DNA of 64,000 nucleotides. Origin: Saccharopolyspora soli. Lineage in GTDB: Bacteria > Actinomycetota > Actinomycetes > Mycobacteriales > Pseudonocardiaceae. Made by a program: the position numbers and the translations under genes. The notes under the pieces are model-generated. The model worked only from the letters and a program-made list of their open reading frames with translations, was not told where the DNA came from and made no database searches. This document shows, in pieces, positions 27,938 to 36,810 of this stretch (position 1 is the first letter of the stretch; each line of letters starts with the position of its first letter). Location of the stretch: positions 62,001 through 126,000 of the forward strand of contig NZ_JALBWV010000007.1 of NCBI RefSeq assembly GCF_022678645.1, read 5' to 3'.

Positions 27938-28138
27938 TCACTGATCGGCGACCAGCGAAAGCGCACCCGAGGGGCACACCTGCACCGCTTCCTGAGCCGC
28001 CTCGGCGGCTCTTCCGTCCACTTCGGTCACCAGCACCACCACCCGACCGTCGTCCTCGTTCTGGTCGAACAGCGCTGGCTCGGTGAGCACGCACTGGCCC
28101 GCTCCGACGCAGCGGTCCAGATCGGCCATGATTCGCAT
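27938..28138 (-). CDS. [3Fe-4S] ferredoxin, P450 partner
   Basis: A 66-residue ferredoxin with the cysteine pattern RCVGAGQC ... VCPSGAL (Cx5C then CP), typical of the 3Fe-4S ferredoxins that accompany actinomycete P450s, such as SuaB. It passes electrons from a ferredoxin reductase to the P450 encoded 11 nt upstream. The ATG at 28138 has AGGAG 5 nt upstream; GTG 28144 is possible. No reductase is encoded nearby. Confidence 0.93.
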   Translation of the reverse strand: MRIMADLDRCVGAGQCVLTEPALFDQNEDDGRVVVLVTEVDGRAAEAAQEAVQVCPSGALSLVADQ

Positions 28139-28149
28139 CGTCACTCCTC

Positions 28150-29358
28150 TCACCAGGTCACGGGCATTTCGTAGATTCCGTAGACGTTGGCGTCGGATTT
28201 GAACGGTAGGTCGTCGACCTCGACCGCCAACCGCAGTTCGGGCATCCGCCGGAACAACGTGTCGAAGACGGTTTGCAGCTCCATCCGCGCCAGGTTCTGC
28301 CCCAGGCACTGGTGCGGGCCGAAGCCGAAGGCCACGTGGCGCCGGGCGTTGCGGTTGATGTCGAGGTCGTCGGGCCGGTCGAACGCCTCGGGGTCGCGGT
28401 TGGCCGCAGTGCCCAGCGCCACCACGCCCTCGCCCGCCTTGATCAGCACACCGCCGATCTCGACGTCCTCCACCGCGGTGCGCGAGGTCGCGGCCTCGAC
28501 GATGGTGAAGTAGCGCAGCAACTCCTCGACCGCTGGCAAGGTCTTCGCCGGGTCGGCGACGATCTCCGCCAACTGCTCGGGGTTCTCCAGCAGCGCCAGG
28601 GTGCCCAGCGAGATCATGTTCGCGGTCGTCTCGTGCCCCGCGATCAGCAGCAGGAACGCCAGGCTGACCAGCGCCTCGTGGTCGACCTCGCCGGATTCGC
28701 GCTGCTTGCTGATCTGCCGACCGATCAGGTCGTCGGTGACCTCGCGCTCCTTGTTCGACACCAGCTCGTCCAGATAGGTCCGGATGTCCTCGACCGCCGC
28801 CATCCGCTGCTCGGCCGTGGTCGACCTGCGCACCACCAAGCTGGTCCGCTGCTGGAAGAAGTCGTGGTCGGCGTACGGCACGCCGAGCAGTTCGCAGATC
28901 ACCAGCGACGGCACCGGCAGGGACAGCGCGCGCACCAGGTCGGCCGGGCCGGACTCGGCGAGCATCGCGTCGATGCACTCATCGACGATCTGCTGGACCC
29001 GCGGCCGCAGCTCCTCGATCCGCCGCACGGTGAACTCGCCGAGCACGGCGCGGCGGGCCGTGGCGTGCTCGGTGCCGTCCATCCCGATCAACGACGGGGT
29101 GAAGTTGCTGACGGCCTGCTGGTTCGGCGTGAACTTGGGGAAGCCGGGGTGGCGCCGGTCGGAGCTCATCCGCGGATCGCCGAGCACCCGGCGGACGTCT
29201 TCGTGGCGGGTGACCAGCCAGGCCGTGCCGCCGCCGAGCATCGGCACCTTGGTGATCGGCGCCTCCGCTCGCAACTGGGTGTATTCCGGTGCGGGCTCGA
29301 ACGGGCAGGTTCGGACCTTGGGATAGGCGGCTGTTGCGTCGACGCCTGCGTCGGACAT
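28150..29358 (-). CDS. Cytochrome P450 (CYP105-like)
   Basis: A 402-residue soluble P450. The I-helix motif is LLIAGHETTANM, the K-helix ExxR is EELLRY, and the heme loop is FGFGPHQCLGQNLAR with the cysteine ligand. Length and sequence style fit the actinomycete CYP105/107 group that oxidises diverse small molecules and drugs. The ATG has AGGGAG upstream. It is co-transcribed with the ferredoxin gene and divergent from a TetR gene; a 26-bp inverted repeat lies 40 nt before its start. The substrate is unknown. Confidence 0.95.
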   Translation of the reverse strand: MSDAGVDATAAYPKVRTCPFEPAPEYTQLRAEAPITKVPMLGGGTAWLVTRHEDVRRVLGDPRMSSDRRHPGFPKFTPNQQAVSNFTPSLIGMDGTEHATARRAVLGEFTVRRIEELRPRVQQIVDECIDAMLAESGPADLVRALSLPVPSLVICELLGVPYADHDFFQQRTSLVVRRSTTAEQRMAAVEDIRTYLDELVSNKEREVTDDLIGRQISKQRESGEVDHEALVSLAFLLLIAGHETTANMISLGTLALLENPEQLAEIVADPAKTLPAVEELLRYFTIVEAATSRTAVEDVEIGGVLIKAGEGVVALGTAANRDPEAFDRPDDLDINRNARRHVAFGFGPHQCLGQNLARMELQTVFDTLFRRMPELRLAVEVDDLPFKSDANVYGIYEMPVTW

Positions 29359-29397
29359 CGTGACTCCCTGATCACCGAGCGAACAACTGGATGAATC

Positions 29398-29423
29398 CCT
29401 TCCGGTTATATCGAACCGGAAGG
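29398..29423. promoter_or_regulatory. TetR-type operator candidate (10-bp inverted repeat)
   Basis: A perfect inverted repeat CCTTCCGGTT-ATATCG-AACCGGAAGG in the 141-nt gap between the P450 and the divergent TetR gene. A second palindrome GTTCCGGAAC (29443-29452) with the same TTCCGG core lies 20 nt further, next to a -10-like TATAGT (29436-29441). Size and placement fit autoregulation by the adjacent TetR protein and control of the P450-ferredoxin pair. Confidence 0.75.
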
Positions 29424-29499
29424 ATTTCGTCCACCTATAGTCGTTCCGGAACATGCGACAATCCGCCCAACCCAGCCCCACCCTCGACGAGCGAGGACC

Positions 29500-30156
29500 A
29501 TGACGACCGACGCCACGCCAAGACTGCGGGCCGACGCCCGCCGCAACCGCGACCGGATCATCTCGGCAGCGCGCACCGTCTTCACCGAGCGCGGTACCGA
29601 AGTTCCGATGGAGGAGATCGCCCGCGCCGCCGGGGTCGGGATCGGCACGCTCTACCGGCGCTTCCCGGATCGCGACTCGCTGATCACCGCCATCGGCCGG
29701 GACGCGTTCGAGCGGGTGCTCGACGAAGCCCGCACGATCGGCGAGCGCGAGCCCGACCCGTGGCGGGCGCTGACCAGCTTCCTGCTGCGCGCGGCGGATC
29801 TGCGCACCGTGGTCCGGTTTTCCATGCTGTCCCAACGGGCCAGGGCGATCCTGGCCGCGGACCCGGCCGTCGCGCAGACCCGCGACGAACTGCTGGAGGT
29901 CCTGGACGGACTGGTGCGCGCCGCGCAGCGCAACGGTTCGATCCGGCCGGACGTCAGCAGCGGTGACATCGGGGTGATCCTGTCCATCGTGCTGCAAGGC
30001 GTGCACATCGTCCCGGAGGACGTCCGCCGCGACGCCCCGGCCCGGTACCTGACGCTGATGCTCGACGGCCTGCAGGCCAAGCCCGGAACACCACTGCCGG
30101 GCCGGCCGGTCACCAACGACGACCTGGCGACCGTGCACCGCGTCGTGGAGAACTGA
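29500..30156 (+). CDS. TetR family transcriptional regulator
   Basis: A 218-residue TetR protein. The N-terminal helix-turn-helix is RIISAARTVFTERGTEVPMEEIARAAGVGIGTLYRRFPDRDSLI. The C-terminal ligand-binding domain (WRALTSFLLRAADLRTVVRF...) is of the type common in actinomycetes. It is divergent from the P450 gene, with two TTCCGG-based palindromes between them, so it probably represses itself and the P450-ferredoxin operon until a ligand, perhaps the P450 substrate, binds. Confidence 0.93.
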   Translation: MTTDATPRLRADARRNRDRIISAARTVFTERGTEVPMEEIARAAGVGIGTLYRRFPDRDSLITAIGRDAFERVLDEARTIGEREPDPWRALTSFLLRAADLRTVVRFSMLSQRARAILAADPAVAQTRDELLEVLDGLVRAAQRNGSIRPDVSSGDIGVILSIVLQGVHIVPEDVRRDAPARYLTLMLDGLQAKPGTPLPGRPVTNDDLATVHRVVEN

Positions 30157-30196: not shown

Positions 30197-30577
30197 TCAG
30201 CGCGCCATGTCATCGGCTTCGAACATGCCGAAGATGTTGCCCTCGGTGTCGCGGCAGTAGGCCACCCAGCCCATGCCGGTCAACGCCGTCTTCGGCATCG
30301 CCACCCGGCCGCCCGCCGACTCCACGATCGACAGCATCGCCTCGACGTCGGCCACCTCGACGGTCGTGGCGAATGCCGCGATCGGCGTTTCGTCGGTGGG
30401 GTCCGAACCCTTGCGGGGCAGCAGACCGCCGTCGATGCCCGGCCCGTCGCCGGTGAAGACCAGCCAGTAGGGATTGTCCTCCCACTGCTGGAAGTGCCAC
30501 CCGAACACGGTGGAGTAGAACTCGCGGGCGCGATCCACGTCGGTGGCGTGGATCTCGAAGTGCACGGGACGCAGCAT
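30197..30577 (-). CDS. VOC (glyoxalase/bleomycin resistance) family protein
   Basis: A 126-residue one-domain VOC protein with two beta-alpha-beta-beta-beta repeats: VHFEIHATDVDRAREFYSTVFGW and TVEVADVEAMLSIVESAGGRV ... GWVAYCRDTEGNIFGMF. Members bind metals and catalyse isomerisation, dioxygenation or drug sequestration; nothing narrows the role here. The ATG has GAGGAGG upstream. It lies 68 nt after the permease gene on the same strand. Confidence 0.9.
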   Translation of the reverse strand: MLRPVHFEIHATDVDRAREFYSTVFGWHFQQWEDNPYWLVFTGDGPGIDGGLLPRKGSDPTDETPIAAFATTVEVADVEAMLSIVESAGGRVAMPKTALTGMGWVAYCRDTEGNIFGMFEADDMAR

Positions 30578-30645
30578 GGCGGCCTCCTCGACGCCAACCC
30601 CTCGCCTGCGAACGTAAGCCCTGCCCGCCGCACCCGCACTGACGA

Positions 30646-31986
30646 TCAGCGCCGCTTCGCCACCAGCACCCGCAGCAGGTGGTAGCCCAGCAGCGCCACC
30701 AGGGTGCCCAGCGCGATGCCGCTGAGGCTGAACCGCGGGGTGATATCCAGCGACACGCCGCCGATTCCGACCACCAGCCCGGCGGCCAGCGGCAGCAGGT
30801 TGATCGGATCGCCGAAGTCGACCCGGTTCGCCACCCAGATCTTCGCGCCCAGCAGGCCGATCATGCCGTAGAGGACGACGGTGATGCCGCCGAGCACGCC
30901 GCCCGGCGTCGCCGCGATCACCGCCCCGAACTTCGGGCACAGTCCGAACAGGATCGCCACGATCGCGGCCACACAGTACGCCGCCGTGGAGTACACGCGG
31001 GTGGCGGCCATGACGCCGATGTTCTCCGCGTAGGTGGTGGTCGGCGGGCCACCGACGGCGCTGGAGAGGGCGCTGGCGAAGCCGTCGGCGAAGATCGCCC
31101 GGCCGAGGCCGTCGTCCAGCTTCGTGCGGGTCATCTCCTCGACGGCCTTGACGTGCCCGGTGTTCTCCGCGATCAGCGCGATCACCGCGGGCAGCACCAC
31201 GATCACCGCCGCCGCGTCGAACGACGGCGCCAGCAGGTCCGGCATGCCGAACCAACTCGCGTCCGCGACGCCGCTGAGGTCGAGCCGGAAGTGCGTGCTG
31301 ACAACCCCGTCGGCGTCCGGCGCGGTGATCGGTCCGAAGCCCCGGTCGAACAGCCACGACAAGCCGTAACCGACGACCAGCCCGAGGAACACCGCGATGC
31401 GGGCGAAGAAACCGCGCAGCAGCACGGTGCAACCGAGCACCACGAGCATCGTGATCAGCGCGATCCACTGGTCCTGCGGCCAGTACGTTTCCGCGACCAC
31501 CGGGGCGAGGTTAAAGCCGATCAGCATCACCACCGCACCGGAGACCGCGGGCGGTAACAGGCGGTGCACCACCTGCGCGCCGACGAAGTGGATGATCAAC
31601 CCGACGGCGGCCAGCACCACGGCGCACACCAGGATCGCGCCGGTGACCGTCGAGGTGTCCCCACCGCCAGCCCGGATCACCGTCACCGCACCTACGAAGG
31701 ATGCGCTGCTGCCCAGGTAGCTGGGAATTTTGCCCTGCACGATCAGCAGGAACAGGATCGTCGCCGCGCCGGAGACCATGATGGCCAGGTTCGGGTCCAG
31801 CCCCATCAGCACCGGGAAGACGAAGGTGGCACCGAACATGGCCACCACGTGCTGCGCACCGAGCCCCGCGGTGCGGCCCCAGGACAGCCGTTCGTCCGGG
31901 GCCACCGCCTCGCCGGGTCGCGGGGTGCTGCCGTCCCCGTGCAACGTCCAGCCGATGCCGAGCTTCGCCGCGAGTCCCCGCCGCAT
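30646..31986 (-). CDS. Uracil-xanthine permease, NCS2 family (UraA-like)
   Basis: A 446-residue NCS2 carrier with about 14 membrane segments. The start AGLGAQHVVAMFGATFVFPVLMGLDP, the motif AENTGHVKAVEEMT (substrate-binding helix 8) and GGPPTTTYAENIGVMAATRVYS match the uracil branch (UraA/PyrP/RutG) of NCS2. It imports pyrimidine bases by proton symport. The ATG has AGGAAGG upstream. It follows the reductive pyrimidine catabolism genes on the same strand, separated by a strong hairpin, so it probably has its own promoter while serving the same pathway. Confidence 0.93.
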   Translation of the reverse strand: MRRGLAAKLGIGWTLHGDGSTPRPGEAVAPDERLSWGRTAGLGAQHVVAMFGATFVFPVLMGLDPNLAIMVSGAATILFLLIVQGKIPSYLGSSASFVGAVTVIRAGGGDTSTVTGAILVCAVVLAAVGLIIHFVGAQVVHRLLPPAVSGAVVMLIGFNLAPVVAETYWPQDQWIALITMLVVLGCTVLLRGFFARIAVFLGLVVGYGLSWLFDRGFGPITAPDADGVVSTHFRLDLSGVADASWFGMPDLLAPSFDAAAVIVVLPAVIALIAENTGHVKAVEEMTRTKLDDGLGRAIFADGFASALSSAVGGPPTTTYAENIGVMAATRVYSTAAYCVAAIVAILFGLCPKFGAVIAATPGGVLGGITVVLYGMIGLLGAKIWVANRVDFGDPINLLPLAAGLVVGIGGVSLDITPRFSLSGIALGTLVALLGYHLLRVLVAKRR

Positions 31987-32186: not shown

Positions 32187-33185
32187 TCACCGCAGGGCGG
32201 GGATGACGGTCGCGCCGTAGGCGTCCACTGTGGAGTCCAGCGCGTCGTGCATGGCGTAGACCGCGAACTGGTCGACCCCGGCTTCGCGGAGTTCGCGCAG
32301 CTTGGCCACATGCGCCTCGGCCGGGCCGAGCACGCAGAAGCGGTCCACGATCTCGTCTGGCACGAATTCCGTGCTGGGGTTGTCGGCGCGGCCGTGGTGC
32401 GAGTAGTCGTAGCCCTCCCGGCCCTTGATGTAGTCGGTGAGCGCGGCGGGCACCGCCTCGGCCGCCTCGCCGTAGCGCGCCACGAGATCGGCGACGTGGT
32501 TGCCGACCATACCGCCGAACCAGCGGCACTGCTCGCGGGCGTGGTCGAGGTCGGCCCCGACGTAAGCCGGAGCCGCCACGCACACCGTGATCGACGCCGG
32601 GTCGCGGCCAGCATCCACGGCGGCCTGCCGGACGTGGTCGACCATCCACCGCGTCAGGTACGGATCCGCGAGTTGCAGGATGAAGCCGTCGGCCTGCCGA
32701 CCGACGAGTTCCAACGCCTTGGGTCCGTAGGCGCCCATCCAGACCGGCAGCCGACCACCACGGACCCACGGCAGCCGCACCGCTGTCCCGTGCCGCTGCA
32801 CCTCCCGGCCCTCGGCGAGTTCCCTGATCACGTGCATGGCCTGTTCGAGCGTGGCGAGCGTGGCCGGTCGGCCGCCGGTCACCCGCACCGCCGAGTCGCC
32901 GCGACCGATGCCGCACACCGTGCGCGGTCCGAACATGTCGTTGAGGGTGGCGAAGGTCGAGGCGGTGACCGTCCAGTCGCGGGTGGTCGGGTTGGTCACC
33001 ATCGGGCCGACGATCAGCCGCTCGGTGCGGGCCAGGATCTGGCTGTGGATGACGAACGGCTCCTGCCACAGCACGCAGGAGTCGAAGGTCCAGCCGTGGC
33101 TGAAGCCCAACTGCTCGGCTCGGCGCATCCGGTCCACCACCGACCAGGCCGGTGGATCGGTCTGCAGTACCAGCCCGAAGTCCAT
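32187..33185 (-). CDS. F420-type luciferase-like (LLM) oxidoreductase of the hydantoinase-associated (TIGR03842-like) group
   Basis: A 332-residue LLM-fold protein (MDFGLVLQTDPPAWSVVDRM at the start; TFDSCVLWQEPF; GPMVTNPTTRDW; GIGRGDSAVRVTGG; VWMGAYGPKALEL). These signatures fit the F420-dependent subfamily that is repeatedly found beside dihydropyrimidinase genes. LLM enzymes use F420 or FMN; RutA, which attacks uracil, has the same fold. Here it follows dihydropyrimidinase by 75 nt in an operon lacking dihydropyrimidine dehydrogenase, so it is a candidate for the first step, uracil to dihydrouracil. That role is inference. GGAGGT precedes the ATG. Confidence 0.9.
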   Translation of the reverse strand: MDFGLVLQTDPPAWSVVDRMRRAEQLGFSHGWTFDSCVLWQEPFVIHSQILARTERLIVGPMVTNPTTRDWTVTASTFATLNDMFGPRTVCGIGRGDSAVRVTGGRPATLATLEQAMHVIRELAEGREVQRHGTAVRLPWVRGGRLPVWMGAYGPKALELVGRQADGFILQLADPYLTRWMVDHVRQAAVDAGRDPASITVCVAAPAYVGADLDHAREQCRWFGGMVGNHVADLVARYGEAAEAVPAALTDYIKGREGYDYSHHGRADNPSTEFVPDEIVDRFCVLGPAEAHVAKLRELREAGVDQFAVYAMHDALDSTVDAYGATVIPALR

Positions 33186-33260
33186 CGTGGACCTCCGTTC
33201 TCCTCAAGAAGTCGGTTGATTCGCGTAGCCCGCTCGGTCCCGAATGCCCCGACGAGGCGT

Positions 33261-34661
33261 TCAGATCAGGTATTGGCAGGTGTCGCGGGGCAGGAAGCGG
33301 CCGTATCCGGCCCGCCCGGTGAAGGTGCCGTCGGCTACGACGACCCCGCCGCGGGAGAGCACGGTGCGGACCCGGCCGGTGACCCGCTTGCCTTCGTAGG
33401 CGTTGTAGTCGACGTTCATGTGGTGCGTCTCGGCCGAGAGCACGTGTTCGGCGTGCGGGTCGTAGATCACGATGTCGGCGTCGCAGCCGGGCGCGATGGT
33501 GCCCTTGCGGGGGTGCAGGCCGAACATGCGCGCCGGGGTGGTGCAGGCCAGCTCGATCCACCGGCGGCGGCTGATGTGCCCCTCCACCACTGCTTGGTGC
33601 AGCAGGTCCATCCGGTTCTCCACGCCCGGGATGCCGTTGGGGATCTTCGAGAAGTCGCCGCGGCCGAGTTCCTTCTGGTCCTTGAAGCAGAACGGGCAAT
33701 GGTCGGTGGAGACCACCGACAGGTCGTTGGTGCGCAACGCCCGCCACAGGTCAGTCTGGTGCTCGACCGGGCGCAGCGGTGTCGAGCACACGTACTTGGC
33801 GCCCTCGAAACCAGGTTTCGCCAACTCGTCCAGGGTGAGGAACAGGTACTGCGGGCAGGTCTCGCCGAAGACGTTGAGGCCGTTGTCGCGGGCCTGGGTG
33901 ATCTCCGCGACCGCCTCGGCGGCCGAGACGTGCACGACGTACAGCGGCGCACCGGCCACTCTGGACAGTTGGATCGCCCGGTGCGTCGCCTCGGCCTCCA
34001 GCAGCGGATGCCGGACCTGCCCGTGGTGCTTCGGGTCGGTGCGACCAGCCGCCAGCGCCTGCTGCACGAGCACGTCGATCGCGATGCCGTTCTCGGCGTG
34101 CATCATGGTCAGCGCGCCGTTGTCGGCGGCCTGCTGCATGGCGCGCAGGATCCGCCCGTCGTCGCTGTAGAACACGCCGGGATAGGCCATGAACATCTTG
34201 AAGCTGGTGACGCCTTCCGCGACCAGCGCGTCCATCTCCTTCAGCGCTTCGTCGCCGACGTCGGAGAGGATCATGTGGAAGCCGTAGTCGATGGCGCACT
34301 GCCCGTCGGCCTTGGCGTGCCAGGCGTCCAGACCTTCGCGCAGGAAACCGCCGACCGGCTGGATCGCGAAGTCGACGATCGTGGTCGTGCCGCCCCAGGC
34401 CGCGGCGCGGGTGCCGGTTTCGAAGGTGTCCGAGGCGAACGTCCCCCCGAAGGGCATCTGCATGTGCGTGTGCCCGTCCACGCCGCCGGGGATCACGTAG
34501 TGCCCGCTGGCGTCGATCACCGCGTCCGCACTGGACGCCCACTGCTCAGCGGCTGCGGGTGCGGCGATCCCCACCACCTGCTCGCCATCGACGAGCACGT
34601 CCGCACGGGTCTCTTCGGTCGCGGTGATCACCAGGCCACCGCGGATGATCGTCCTGCTCAT
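33261..34661 (-). CDS. hydA: Dihydropyrimidinase / D-hydantoinase
   Basis: A 466-residue cyclic amidohydrolase. Metal ligands are visible as DGHTHMQMPFGG, the carboxylated lysine in VTSFKMFMAYPG, HAENG, VVHVSAAEA, and the aspartate in VVSTDHCPF. It opens dihydrouracil or dihydrothymine to N-carbamoyl-beta-amino acids, the second step of reductive pyrimidine breakdown; hydantoins are alternative substrates. The ATG overlaps the aminotransferase stop by 4 nt (ATGA). The first 50 residues lie in a well-conserved start; longer in-frame readings belong to the preceding gene. Confidence 0.96.
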   Translation of the reverse strand: MSRTIIRGGLVITATEETRADVLVDGEQVVGIAAPAAAEQWASSADAVIDASGHYVIPGGVDGHTHMQMPFGGTFASDTFETGTRAAAWGGTTTIVDFAIQPVGGFLREGLDAWHAKADGQCAIDYGFHMILSDVGDEALKEMDALVAEGVTSFKMFMAYPGVFYSDDGRILRAMQQAADNGALTMMHAENGIAIDVLVQQALAAGRTDPKHHGQVRHPLLEAEATHRAIQLSRVAGAPLYVVHVSAAEAVAEITQARDNGLNVFGETCPQYLFLTLDELAKPGFEGAKYVCSTPLRPVEHQTDLWRALRTNDLSVVSTDHCPFCFKDQKELGRGDFSKIPNGIPGVENRMDLLHQAVVEGHISRRRWIELACTTPARMFGLHPRKGTIAPGCDADIVIYDPHAEHVLSAETHHMNVDYNAYEGKRVTGRVRTVLSRGGVVVADGTFTGRAGYGRFLPRDTCQYLI

Positions 34662-35956
34662 CGTCGCCCCACCTCCTCCAGCGCAGCCAGCAGGATCCGG
34701 CCGCCGTCGCGTGCCTCCGACTCGGTGAGGCTCAGCGGTGGGGCGATCCGCAGGACGTTGCCGTCCAAGCCGCCCTTGCCGATGAGCACCCCGCGCCGCC
34801 GGGATCCTTCGAGCACTTCGCTGGCGATCTCCGGGGCGGGACTGCCGTCGGCGTGCGCCAGTTCGACGCCGATCATCAGGCCCTTGCCGCGCACCTCGAC
34901 GACCGCCGGGACCCGGCCCAGCGCGCTGTCGAGCTGTTCGTGCAGGATCGCGCCGACGCGGGCGGCATTGCCCTGCAGGTCGTTGGCGATGAGGTAGTCG
35001 AGGTTGGCCAGCGCCCCGGCTGCGGTGACCGGGCTGCCGCCGAAGGTGGAGATCGAGTTCGCCCGGACGCTGTTCATGACATCGGCGCGGGCGATGACAC
35101 CACCGATCGACAGGCCGTTGCCGATGCCCTTGGCGAAGGTGACGATCTCCGGCGCGCCGCGCGCGTCGTGCGCCTGCCAGCCCCAGAAGTGCTCGCCGGT
35201 CCTCCCCCACCCGGTCTGCACCTCGTCGCTGATCCACAGGATGCCGTGCCGGTCGAGGACCTCCTTGAAGCGGGCGAACAACCCGTCCGGCGGGGTGGTG
35301 AACCCGCCGACGCCCTGGATCGGCTCGGCGATCAGGCAGGCGACGTTGCCGTGCAACTGTCCGAGCACGTCTTCGAGGTCGGCCACGCAGGCCGCGGTGA
35401 GCTCCTCGTCCGACAGGTGCGCCAACGGCGTACCGCGCCGACGGCTGCCGTGCACGTATGCCGTCTGCACCGGGGACAGGCTGGTCGGCGACCAGCTGCG
35501 GTTGCCGGTCACCGCCAGCGACGAGAACGACCGGCCGTGGTAGCTGTTGCGCAGCGCGAGCACCTGGTTCGAGCCGCGGTATGCGGTGGCCAGCAGCAGC
35601 GCGGTGTCGTTGGCCTCGGTGCCGCTGGTCGTGAAGAACACCCTCGGGTCCTCGATGGCGGCCAGCTCCGCGACCCGCTCGGCCAGCTCGATCATCGGGC
35701 GGTTGAGGTACAGCGTCGAGGTGTGCAGGACCTTGCCCGCCTGCTCGGTGACCGCCGCGGTCACCTCGGGCAGCGCGTGCGCGGTCATGGTGGTGAGGAT
35801 GCCGCCGAAGAAGTCCAGGTACCGGTTGCCCTCGGCGTCCCAGACGTGCCGCCCCTCGCCGCGCTCGATGTCGATCGGCTCGTCGTAGTACAGCGCGAGC
35901 CAGTCCGGCAGCACCGCGCGGTGCCGCTTGGTCAGGTCGGTGTGCGTGCTCGTCAT
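34658..35956 (-). CDS. Class III aminotransferase (beta-alanine / omega-amino acid type)
   Basis: A 432-residue PLP enzyme of fold type I, class III. Motifs: FFTTSGTEANDTALLLA, NSYHGRSFSSLAVTG, ISDEVQTGWGRTGEHFWG and the PLP lysine in VTFAKGIGNGLSIGG. It probably transfers the amino group of beta-alanine (or 3-aminoisobutyrate) to pyruvate or glyoxylate, giving malonate semialdehyde, the last step encoded here. AGXT2- or GABA-transaminase-like activity cannot be excluded. It starts 11 nt after the beta-ureidopropionase stop and overlaps dihydropyrimidinase. Confidence 0.93.
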   Translation of the reverse strand: MTSTHTDLTKRHRAVLPDWLALYYDEPIDIERGEGRHVWDAEGNRYLDFFGGILTTMTAHALPEVTAAVTEQAGKVLHTSTLYLNRPMIELAERVAELAAIEDPRVFFTTSGTEANDTALLLATAYRGSNQVLALRNSYHGRSFSSLAVTGNRSWSPTSLSPVQTAYVHGSRRRGTPLAHLSDEELTAACVADLEDVLGQLHGNVACLIAEPIQGVGGFTTPPDGLFARFKEVLDRHGILWISDEVQTGWGRTGEHFWGWQAHDARGAPEIVTFAKGIGNGLSIGGVIARADVMNSVRANSISTFGGSPVTAAGALANLDYLIANDLQGNAARVGAILHEQLDSALGRVPAVVEVRGKGLMIGVELAHADGSPAPEIASEVLEGSRRRGVLIGKGGLDGNVLRIAPPLSLTESEARDGGRILLAALEEVGRR

Positions 35957-35967
35957 CGTCGCTCCGT

Positions 35968-36810
35968 TCACGGCTCGGTCAGCGGCTGGTAGGCGTCCGG
36001 GCGCCGATCGCGGTAGAAGGCCCACTTCCGGCGGACCTCGTCGATCAGGTCGAAGTCGAGGTCGCGCACCACGAGTTCCTCGTCGCTGTCGCTGGCGGGT
36101 TCGCCGACGAACTGCCCGTACGGGTCGACGAAGTAGCTGGTGCCGTAGAAGTCGTTGTCGCCGTACTCCTCGATGCCGACCCGGTTGATCGCCGCGATGA
36201 AGTACTCGTTGGCCACCGCCGCCGCGGGCTGTTCGAGCTTCCACAGGTACGACGACAGGCCGCGACTGGTCGCCGAGGGGTTGTAGACCAGTTGCGCGCC
36301 AGCCAGCCCGAGCGCCCGCCACCCCTCCGGGAAGTGCCGGTCGTAGCAGATGTAGACACCGACCCGCCCGACCGCGGTGTCGAACACCGGCCAGCCGAGG
36401 TTGCCGGGCCGGAAGTAGTACTTCTCCCAGAACCCCGGCAGGTGCGGCAGGTGGTGCTTGCGGTACTTGCCGAGGTAGCTGCCGTCCGCGTCGATCACGG
36501 CGGCGGTGTTGTAGTAGAAACCCGGACCGTCGATCTCGTAGACCGGCACGACGATGACCATGCCGAGTTCCCGCGCCAGCGCGCACATCCGCTGTGTGGT
36601 CGGCCCGTCCGGCACCGGCTCGGCCCAGCGGTGGTGCTCCGCTTCCTGCACCTGGCAGAAGTACGGCGCGTTGAAGACCTCCTGGAAGCCGATGATCCCG
36701 GCCCCCTGGTCGGCCGCCGCGCGGGCGCGCTTCTCGTGCTCGTCGACCATCGAGGAGGTATCGCCGGTCCACTTCGCCTGGACCAGTGCGGCGCGAACGA
36801 TGTTTGGCAT
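35968..36810 (-). CDS. Beta-ureidopropionase (N-carbamoyl-beta-alanine amidohydrolase), nitrilase superfamily
   Basis: A 280-residue nitrilase-superfamily enzyme with the Glu-Lys-Cys triad: FQEVFNAPYF, KYRKHHLPHLPGFWEKYYF and VYICYDRHFPEGWRALG. These segments match beta-ureidopropionase, which cuts N-carbamoyl-beta-alanine to beta-alanine, CO2 and NH3 (third step). N-carbamoylputrescine amidase is a close relative but the gene context favours pyrimidine breakdown. The ATG at 36810 is chosen over an upstream start because family members begin close to IVRAALVQ. It is the first gene of the operon. Confidence 0.93.
   Translation of the reverse strand: MPNIVRAALVQAKWTGDTSSMVDEHEKRARAAADQGAGIIGFQEVFNAPYFCQVQEAEHHRWAEPVPDGPTTQRMCALARELGMVIVVPVYEIDGPGFYYNTAAVIDADGSYLGKYRKHHLPHLPGFWEKYYFRPGNLGWPVFDTAVGRVGVYICYDRHFPEGWRALGLAGAQLVYNPSATSRGLSSYLWKLEQPAAAVANEYFIAAINRVGIEEYGDNDFYGTSYFVDPYGQFVGEPASDSDEELVVRDLDFDLIDEVRRKWAFYRDRRPDAYQPLTEP

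Follow-up and report, generated by a model that had tools for sequence, protein, structure and literature searches.

We identified, in a 64,000-nucleotide stretch of Saccharopolyspora soli DNA (hereafter the window; contig NZ_JALBWV010000007.1, positions 62,001 to 126,000), an operon for reductive pyrimidine degradation in which an LLM oxidoreductase of the TIGR03842 family very probably serves as an F420H2-dependent uracil/thymine 5,6-reductase, a new enzyme for step 1 of this pathway. This predicted activity is well supported by comparative sequence evidence, namely the gene context, the absence of the dihydropyrimidine dehydrogenase (DPD) PreA from the assembly, the linkage of LLM genes to cofactor operons and two like-for-like swaps of LLM and PreA. 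The strongest evidence is a Leisingera plasmid cluster carrying F420, LLM and Pyd genes, compared with an orthologous Qingshengfaniella cluster that carries PreA. The finding is a variant of a known pathway and not a new kind of system.

The pyrimidine operon and its proposed pathway

All genes of the operon lie on the minus strand. In order of transcription they encode a PydC-type beta-ureidopropionase of the nitrilase superfamily for step 3 (35968-36810; CN_hydrolase, PF00795, 228 bits), whose best NCBIfam match, N-carbamoylputrescine amidase, falls below its cut-off (248 bits against 410); a class III aminotransferase, presumed to use beta-alanine/beta-aminoisobutyrate in step 4 (34658-35956; PF00202, 280 bits); the PydB/HydA dihydropyrimidinase of step 2 (33261-34661; TIGR02033, 566 bits, cut-off 393); the LLM protein, proposed for step 1 (32187-33185; TIGR03842, 600 bits, cut-off 295), which matches the full length of its family profile (positions 1-329 of 329) and belongs to the family; and an NCS2 nucleobase:cation symporter, presumed to take up uracil (30646-31986; TIGR00801, 291.8 bits, exactly at the cut-off). 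This permease scores 377 bits against the RutG model and 289 bits against the uracil permease model, both below their cut-offs. The window thus holds the dihydropyrimidinase, beta-ureidopropionase and aminotransferase together. Successive genes are separated by an 11-nucleotide gap, an ATGA overlap, a 75-nucleotide gap and 200 nucleotides before the permease; coordinates and profile scores confirm the order, direction, spacing and following NCS2 gene described in an earlier sequence-only reading.

The one TIGR03842 gene of the genome over the cut-off lies 75 nucleotides from the only TIGR02033 match at E<=1e-100. Because each is the sole such gene and LLM-positive genomes are widely spread, the pairing is not due to chance. 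The closest named relatives are from Saccharopolyspora, with the S. indica LLM protein 86% identical among the best 80 of 590 relatives. One Saccharopolyspora locus (L105) has the same genes in the same order, with products 86-93% identical, and three others (L106-L108) have the same set minus any aminotransferase match; the NCS2 permease homologue is 85-88% identical in all four.

In the proposed pathway, the NCS2 permease would import the pyrimidine base, and NpdG, which is encoded apart from the operon, would regenerate F420H2 from NADPH. F420H2 would bind the TIM-barrel LLM protein, which would reduce uracil or thymine by hydride transfer to C6 and protonation of C5, giving dihydrouracil or dihydrothymine. 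Dihydropyrimidinase would open the ring, the nitrilase-type amidohydrolase would release CO2 and NH3 to leave beta-alanine (or beta-aminoisobutyrate), and the aminotransferase would convert this to (methyl)malonate semialdehyde. For the LLM protein we infer the substrate, the use of the cofactor, the direction of the reaction and C6 as the hydride acceptor. Its assignment to the step-1 slot is supported by the survey, in which no PreA was found in any of the 62 genomes with LLM, by the presence of genes for the other steps nearby and by two PreA-carrying counterparts. F420 is the likely cofactor because the LLM gene follows cofG-cofH-cofD-cofC-cofE-npdG in Leisingera and Paracoccus and the predicted fold is nearest to F420 enzymes. 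The sequence-only reading had proposed that the LLM protein reduces uracil or thymine with F420H2, and comparative genomics lends support to this for both the step-1 slot and the cofactor.

Exchange of LLM and PreA and the plasmid F420 modules

On plasmid NZ_CP081074 of Leisingera caerulea, the genes cofG-cofH-cofD-cofC-cofE-npdG-LLM-TetR diverge from pntA-pntB-aminotransferase-Zn hydrolase-hydA-NCS1-DUF1330, and in L. aquaemixtae (NZ_CP041156) the cof-npdG-LLM genes and pntAB are arranged likewise. The TetR protein of L. caerulea carries the YcdC-type C-terminal domain PF08362; YcdC is RutR, a uracil-sensing regulator, and we call this protein RutR-type. Qingshengfaniella alkalisoli, also of the Rhodobacterales, has instead an NAD(P)-dependent oxidoreductase in the PreT position, followed by preA-TetR-Zn hydrolase-hydA-ABC transporter, with hydA 73.6% identical to that of Leisingera. 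Among the matches listed, 19 plasmid records have a hydA that shares 71% identity or more with that of Leisingera, and these carry either LLM (10 records) or PreA (9 records), with both or neither in none. The 10 LLM records are all from Leisingera (two species), and the nine PreA records span six genera, four of them being from Sinorhizobium; no Leisingera is among the PreA matches listed, which cover 60 of the 62 records. The second swap is in Actinomycetota, where one locus (L205, genome G208) has PreT-like, PreA, M20 carbamoylase and dihydropyrimidinase genes in a row. Its M20 protein is 55% identical to the M20 protein beside LLM in locus L060, and TIGR03842 gives no match in this genome at E<=1e-60.

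In Paracoccus alcaliphilus an ABC transporter comes after cofG-H-D-C-E-npdG-LLM, and no hydA annotation was found in the stretches viewed. In the alphaproteobacterial cof operons, from three species of Leisingera and Paracoccus, LLM comes immediately behind npdG, at a distance of 24-31 bp. Since LLM directly follows npdG in these operons, F420 is far more likely than flavin mononucleotide (FMN) to be its cofactor, and binding and turnover of F420 by the LLM protein are putative functions suggested by this genomic association. The Leisingera module encodes both a transhydrogenase and NpdG, and a complete electron path from NADH through NADPH and F420H2 to the pyrimidine is therefore proposed.

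LLM was found on 13 plasmid records, of which 11 are alphaproteobacterial (10 Leisingera and one Paracoccus, two of the Leisingera records having been viewed, and together amounting to about three independent cases) and two are unannotated actinobacterial records. Of the 39 plasmid records that match CofD, 11 also have TIGR03842. The presence of an F420 operon does not by itself imply an LLM module, because no TIGR03842-named gene was seen in the six other plasmid F420 operons that we viewed, from S. meliloti, Agrobacterium rubi, Croceicoccus, Variovorax, Aromatoleum and Paraburkholderia.

Four of the plasmid F420 operons, from S. meliloti pSymA (L192), Agrobacterium rubi (L193), Croceicoccus marinus (L194) and Variovorax (L195), travel with other LLM oxidoreductases, of the TIGR03619 type in L192 and L194. 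Aminotransferases, a CN hydrolase and GTP-binding or deacylase genes accompany them, as does a transhydrogenase subunit in L192. They have the look of further F420-dependent catabolic modules. Both Leisingera and Paracoccus encode a small DUF1330 protein (PF07045) close to their LLM/F420 module (L189:7287-7580 and L185:4026-4316).

Distribution in Actinomycetota

The sequence-only reading had called for a survey of how often TIGR03842-like genes co-occur with dihydropyrimidinase in the absence of DPD. We surveyed 296 Actinomycetota genomes with thresholds of E<=1e-60 for TIGR03842 and PreA, E<=1e-100 for the dihydropyrimidinase family and E<=1e-30 for CofD. TIGR03842 was found in 62 genomes, which represent 17 family labels and 38 of the 199 genera surveyed. 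The dihydropyrimidinase family was present in 87 genomes, comprising 59 of the 62 LLM-positive and 28 of the 234 LLM-negative genomes, and CofD in 164 (58 of 62 and 106 of 234, respectively). The Fisher p values, uncorrected for shared ancestry, are 1e-36 for LLM with dihydropyrimidinase and 4e-13 for LLM with CofD. PreA was found in two genomes, neither of them LLM-positive. The telling fact is the abundance of pyrimidine-type clusters alongside the near-absence of PreA in Actinomycetota.

There are 65 LLM places in these genomes, and a dihydropyrimidinase lies on the same contig in 50 of them, within 500 bp in 17, 3 kb in 30 and 10 kb in 47. We fetched 60 LLM loci and assigned family names from exemplars. 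At least one core Pyd gene is present in 53 loci and at least two in 50, and the dihydropyrimidinase in 44; the earlier reading, too, had this LLM subgroup recurring beside dihydropyrimidinases. A class III aminotransferase (at least 45% identity) is found in 32 loci, an NCS1 transporter in 26 and a methylmalonate-semialdehyde dehydrogenase homologue in 11; an NMT1/THI5-type ABC transporter also recurs near LLM (clusters c5, c7 and c8), and PreA is in none of the 60. LLM stays constant while step 3 alternates between two unrelated enzymes and the transporters vary, since a nitrilase-type beta-ureidopropionase is found in 33 loci and an M20 carbamoylase in 20, never both, with LLM in all. Among the best 80 of 590 LLM relatives, which are close actinobacterial relatives and not an independent sample, 76 have a dihydropyrimidinase of at least 60% identity, adjacent and co-directional with a gap of at most 200 nucleotides in 71, and four have none.

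The 28 LLM-negative genomes with dihydropyrimidinase-family genes gave 29 loci. Most of these are probably not pyrimidine clusters, because 26 of the 29 have no other core Pyd gene. The exceptions are the PreA locus L205 (PreT-like, PreA and M20), L208 (an aminotransferase at a contig end) and L235 (a 32%-identical CN hydrolase). LLM proteins of only 29-30% identity lie near two of the 29 (L229 and L232), and an NCS2-type permease of 27-28% identity near two others (L215 and L218).

On balance we favour the wider proposal that TIGR03842 proteins are F420-dependent DPDs that evolved independently of PreA/PydA, that they act as the main step-1 enzyme in Actinomycetota, and that in some marine Alphaproteobacteria they belong to a portable plasmid module, so that F420 would be made there chiefly for pyrimidine degradation. 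This module would combine F420 synthesis, F420 reduction, transhydrogenase, LLM and Pyd genes.

DPD and F420 genes in the host genome

The S. soli assembly of 9.35 Mb is 97.9% complete and may lack about 2% of the genome. A search for PreA at E<=1e-60 gave no match in it; no DPD of the PreA/PydA type is present in the assembly. Only two proteins exceed the DHO_dh Pfam cut-off, and both resemble class-1 PyrD. The first (L009, C102:38409-39242) is over the class-1B PyrD cut-offs and scores 104 bits against the PreA cut-off of 335; the second (L010, C66:139106-139867) is PyrD-like, under the class-1B cut-offs, and scores 62 bits against the same 335. Neither has the GCPHGM motif or the C-terminal ferredoxin cysteines of PreA. 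A hidden DPD was therefore rejected. The earlier statement that no PydA or PreT/PreA homologue is encoded thus holds for PreA over the whole assembly, and the DPD elsewhere in the genome that had been named as a possible refutation was not found there.

L009 adjoins open reading frames that resemble, by eye, MmgE/PrpD and MFS proteins. No quinone-type PyrD was seen in the host assembly.

The host encodes both F420 genes that were checked, CofD (395 bits) and NpdG, the NADPH:F420 reductase (239 bits), each over its cut-off. Both are on contigs other than that of the operon, as expected where F420 serves as a general cofactor.

Fold and sequence of the LLM protein

An AlphaFold2 model of the LLM protein (46 sequences; pLDDT 87.5, pTM 0.89) has a predicted F420-type TIM-barrel fold. 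In Foldseek, rank 1 is the F420-bound structure 8qpl of Mer, the F420-dependent methylene-tetrahydromethanopterin reductase (TM 0.79, 27% identity), and ranks 1-17 are all F420 enzymes (Mer, then other Mer structures, Adf, FGD and FGD2), with luciferase at rank 18. Mer, which transfers a hydride from F420H2, is also closest in a sequence search of solved structures (E of about 1e-51) and has the GPxVTNP loop in common with the LLM protein. The protein is not itself a Mer, scoring 112 bits against the TIGR03555 cut-off of 349 and lacking Glu6. RutA (TIGR03612, cut-off 498) is absent from the 21 families that match it at E<=0.001. The earlier likening of LLM to RutA therefore stands as far as the shared superfamily is concerned and fails as a special kinship, the LLM protein being related instead to Mer in sequence and fold. 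In 11 actinobacterial and alphaproteobacterial members, W40, R95, W140, Q171, W222-F223, N229-H230, Y259-D260-Y261 and H264 are invariant, and these residues differ or are gaps in the alignment with Methanocaldococcus jannaschii Mer. They are candidates for pyrimidine recognition.

Contrary evidence and alternative roles

Several observations weigh against an F420H2-dependent pyrimidine reductase. Glu6 of Mer, which is Gln in the E6Q mutant structure 8qq8, is Val in the LLM protein, and because of this change its catalysis cannot copy that of Mer. The absence of PreA from the 62 LLM-positive genomes is not significant by itself, PreA being too rare in the phylum, and the failure of PreA and LLM to coincide proves nothing alone because there are only two PreA genomes. 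Four LLM-positive genomes have no CofD match, all of them draft assemblies that are 81-96% complete. Seven of the 60 LLM loci have no core Pyd gene. Six of these (L052, L053, L058, L061, L064 and L080) are truncated at contig ends to 3.4-11.2 kb, L080 being the second TIGR03842 copy of its genome (G130); the seventh (L088, genome G045) is a full 19 kb stretch in which LLM has a methylmalonate-semialdehyde dehydrogenase homologue nearby, and a dihydropyrimidinase is found about 50 kb off. The comparison of LLM with PreA in Leisingera covers plasmid records, and the next three hydA records, at 69-70% identity (Aminobacter, Sulfitobacter and Rhizobium oryzihabitans), have neither LLM nor PreA among the matches listed. 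The Sulfitobacter gene adjoins hydantoinase genes and one for an N-carbamoyl-D-amino-acid hydrolase. Recombinant SSGG-03002, an F420/FMN-dependent oxidoreductase by annotation that is discussed below, gave no product in vitro (PMC10714638), possibly for lack of a coenzyme.

A further caveat is a host protein of the RutA family (626 bits, above its curated cut-off; C145:20301-21362, L200; L203:8281-9441, minus strand), in view of which the operon may not hold the only pyrimidine-attacking gene of the host. The neighbours of this RutA-like gene encode an HsaB-like flavin reductase and a RibBA-like protein, together with a biotin-carboxylase C-terminal fragment, an SDR protein and an MFS transporter. 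A working Rut pathway is unlikely in the host because no RutB exceeds the cut-off in the genome (best 66 bits against 378) and no rut genes were recognised among the scanned neighbours. The RutA homologue possibly has a different flavin- or pyrimidine-related function.

We consider it improbable that the cluster degrades another cyclic ureide, such as hydantoin or a modified or N-substituted pyrimidine, with the LLM protein reducing that compound. The relaxed specificity of dihydropyrimidinases and M20 carbamoylases, the RutA-like gene of the host just described and the variation of the transporter from NCS2 in the window to NCS1 or NMT1/THI5-type ABC elsewhere would all fit such a role; yet the nucleobase-type transporters, class III aminotransferase, (methyl)malonate-semialdehyde dehydrogenase homologues and RutR-type regulator jointly point to uracil and thymine. 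It is just as doubtful that the LLM protein acts at the end of the pathway, where it would oxidise or reduce (methyl)malonate semialdehyde with F420, with step 1 left to an unrecognised enzyme elsewhere. Its structural neighbours Adf and FGD do oxidise alcohols and sugars with F420. However, in the 11 loci with a methylmalonate-semialdehyde dehydrogenase homologue that step is already filled, LLM is the missing part in the PreA clusters viewed, and the host assembly has no PreA, only PyrD-like DHO_dh proteins.

RutA attacks uracil, and a RutA-type reaction yields ureidoacrylate. We rejected as highly improbable an FMN- or O2-dependent, RutA-like oxidative attack by the LLM protein, which shares a superfamily with RutA, since RutA is not among the families it matches, ureidoacrylate is no known substrate of the dihydropyrimidinase encoded 75 nucleotides away, F420 biosynthesis genes directly precede LLM in three alphaproteobacterial species and the 17 nearest structures are F420 enzymes.

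Neighbouring genes

A VOC/glyoxalase gene (30197-30640) was rejected as part of the system, as none of the four Saccharopolyspora loci L105-L108 matches it at E<=1e-15. Just downstream of the operon (27938-30156), the window encodes a cytochrome P450 (PF00067), a ferredoxin-like protein (recognised by eye) and a TetR regulator whose C-terminal domain is SbtR-like, all unrelated by context.

Significance and comparison with known systems

TIGR03842 has the NCBIfam status of a hypothetical equivalog, and the uracil/thymine 5,6-reductase proposed here gives the family a testable function. If true, it would supply the first step of uracil and thymine breakdown that is missing in Saccharopolyspora, Streptomyces and other cluster-bearing actinobacterial lineages, and the dearomatisation of uracil, a central catabolic step, would fall to an unrelated fold that has no iron-sulfur clusters and draws on another electron carrier. 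In the accessible part of a 2021 review of F420 (PMC8498797), the reason why the cofactor is made in Proteobacteria is listed as an unanswered question; the LLM module would be one concrete answer. The sequence-only reading knew of no characterisation of this pathway variant. Among the literature matches listed, mostly open-access full text that cannot prove absence from print, we found none pairing the TIGR03842 family or F420 with uracil degradation, nor the names TIGR03842 or CPS_4043, and only an analogous suggestion of an F420-dependent LLM protein for the reduction of yanthine.

Compared with the PreT-PreA/PydA pathway, steps 2-4 and the types of transporter and regulator are alike, down to the 73.6%-identical hydA with a Zn hydrolase beside it in Rhodobacterales. 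Step 1 differs, being catalysed there by a PyrD-family enzyme with FMN, flavin adenine dinucleotide and Fe-S centres and here, as proposed, by an LLM/F420 protein. The electron donor of known DPDs is NAD(P)H or ferredoxin, a ferredoxin-dependent PydA variant being described in the accessible part of PMC7332683, whereas F420H2 is proposed for LLM. Mer (8qpl, 1z69) is the closest solved protein in sequence and fold and shares the GPxVTNP loop. Unlike Mer, the LLM protein, only about 27% identical to it, scores far under the Mer model cut-offs, has Val in place of Glu6 and carries family-invariant residues that are not found in Mer.

Two further systems invite comparison, each known here from the accessible part of its source. 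In Chloroflexota, a putative F420-dependent 'yanthine reductase' of the luciferase family has been predicted from gene neighbourhood (PMC12507026). As in our proposal, an F420-LLM protein would replace a flavin/Fe-S reductase in the reductive dearomatisation of an oxo-N-heterocycle ahead of a cyclic amidohydrolase; however, that pathway degrades purines, and the accessible text mentions neither TIGR03842 nor uracil. SSGG-03002/NpsU, a putative F420/FMN oxidoreductase by annotation, is genetically required for reduction of the uracil-ring C5=C6 bond in mureidomycin (PMC10714638). It sets a chemical precedent for the reduction proposed for the LLM protein; in contrast to the catabolic role proposed here, its role in the uridyl-peptide antibiotics is biosynthetic, with a nucleoside peptide or its precursor as substrate. 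Taken with the yanthine and mureidomycin cases, a uracil/thymine reductase of the TIGR03842 family would make F420-dependent dearomatisation of oxo-N-heterocycles a general chemistry.

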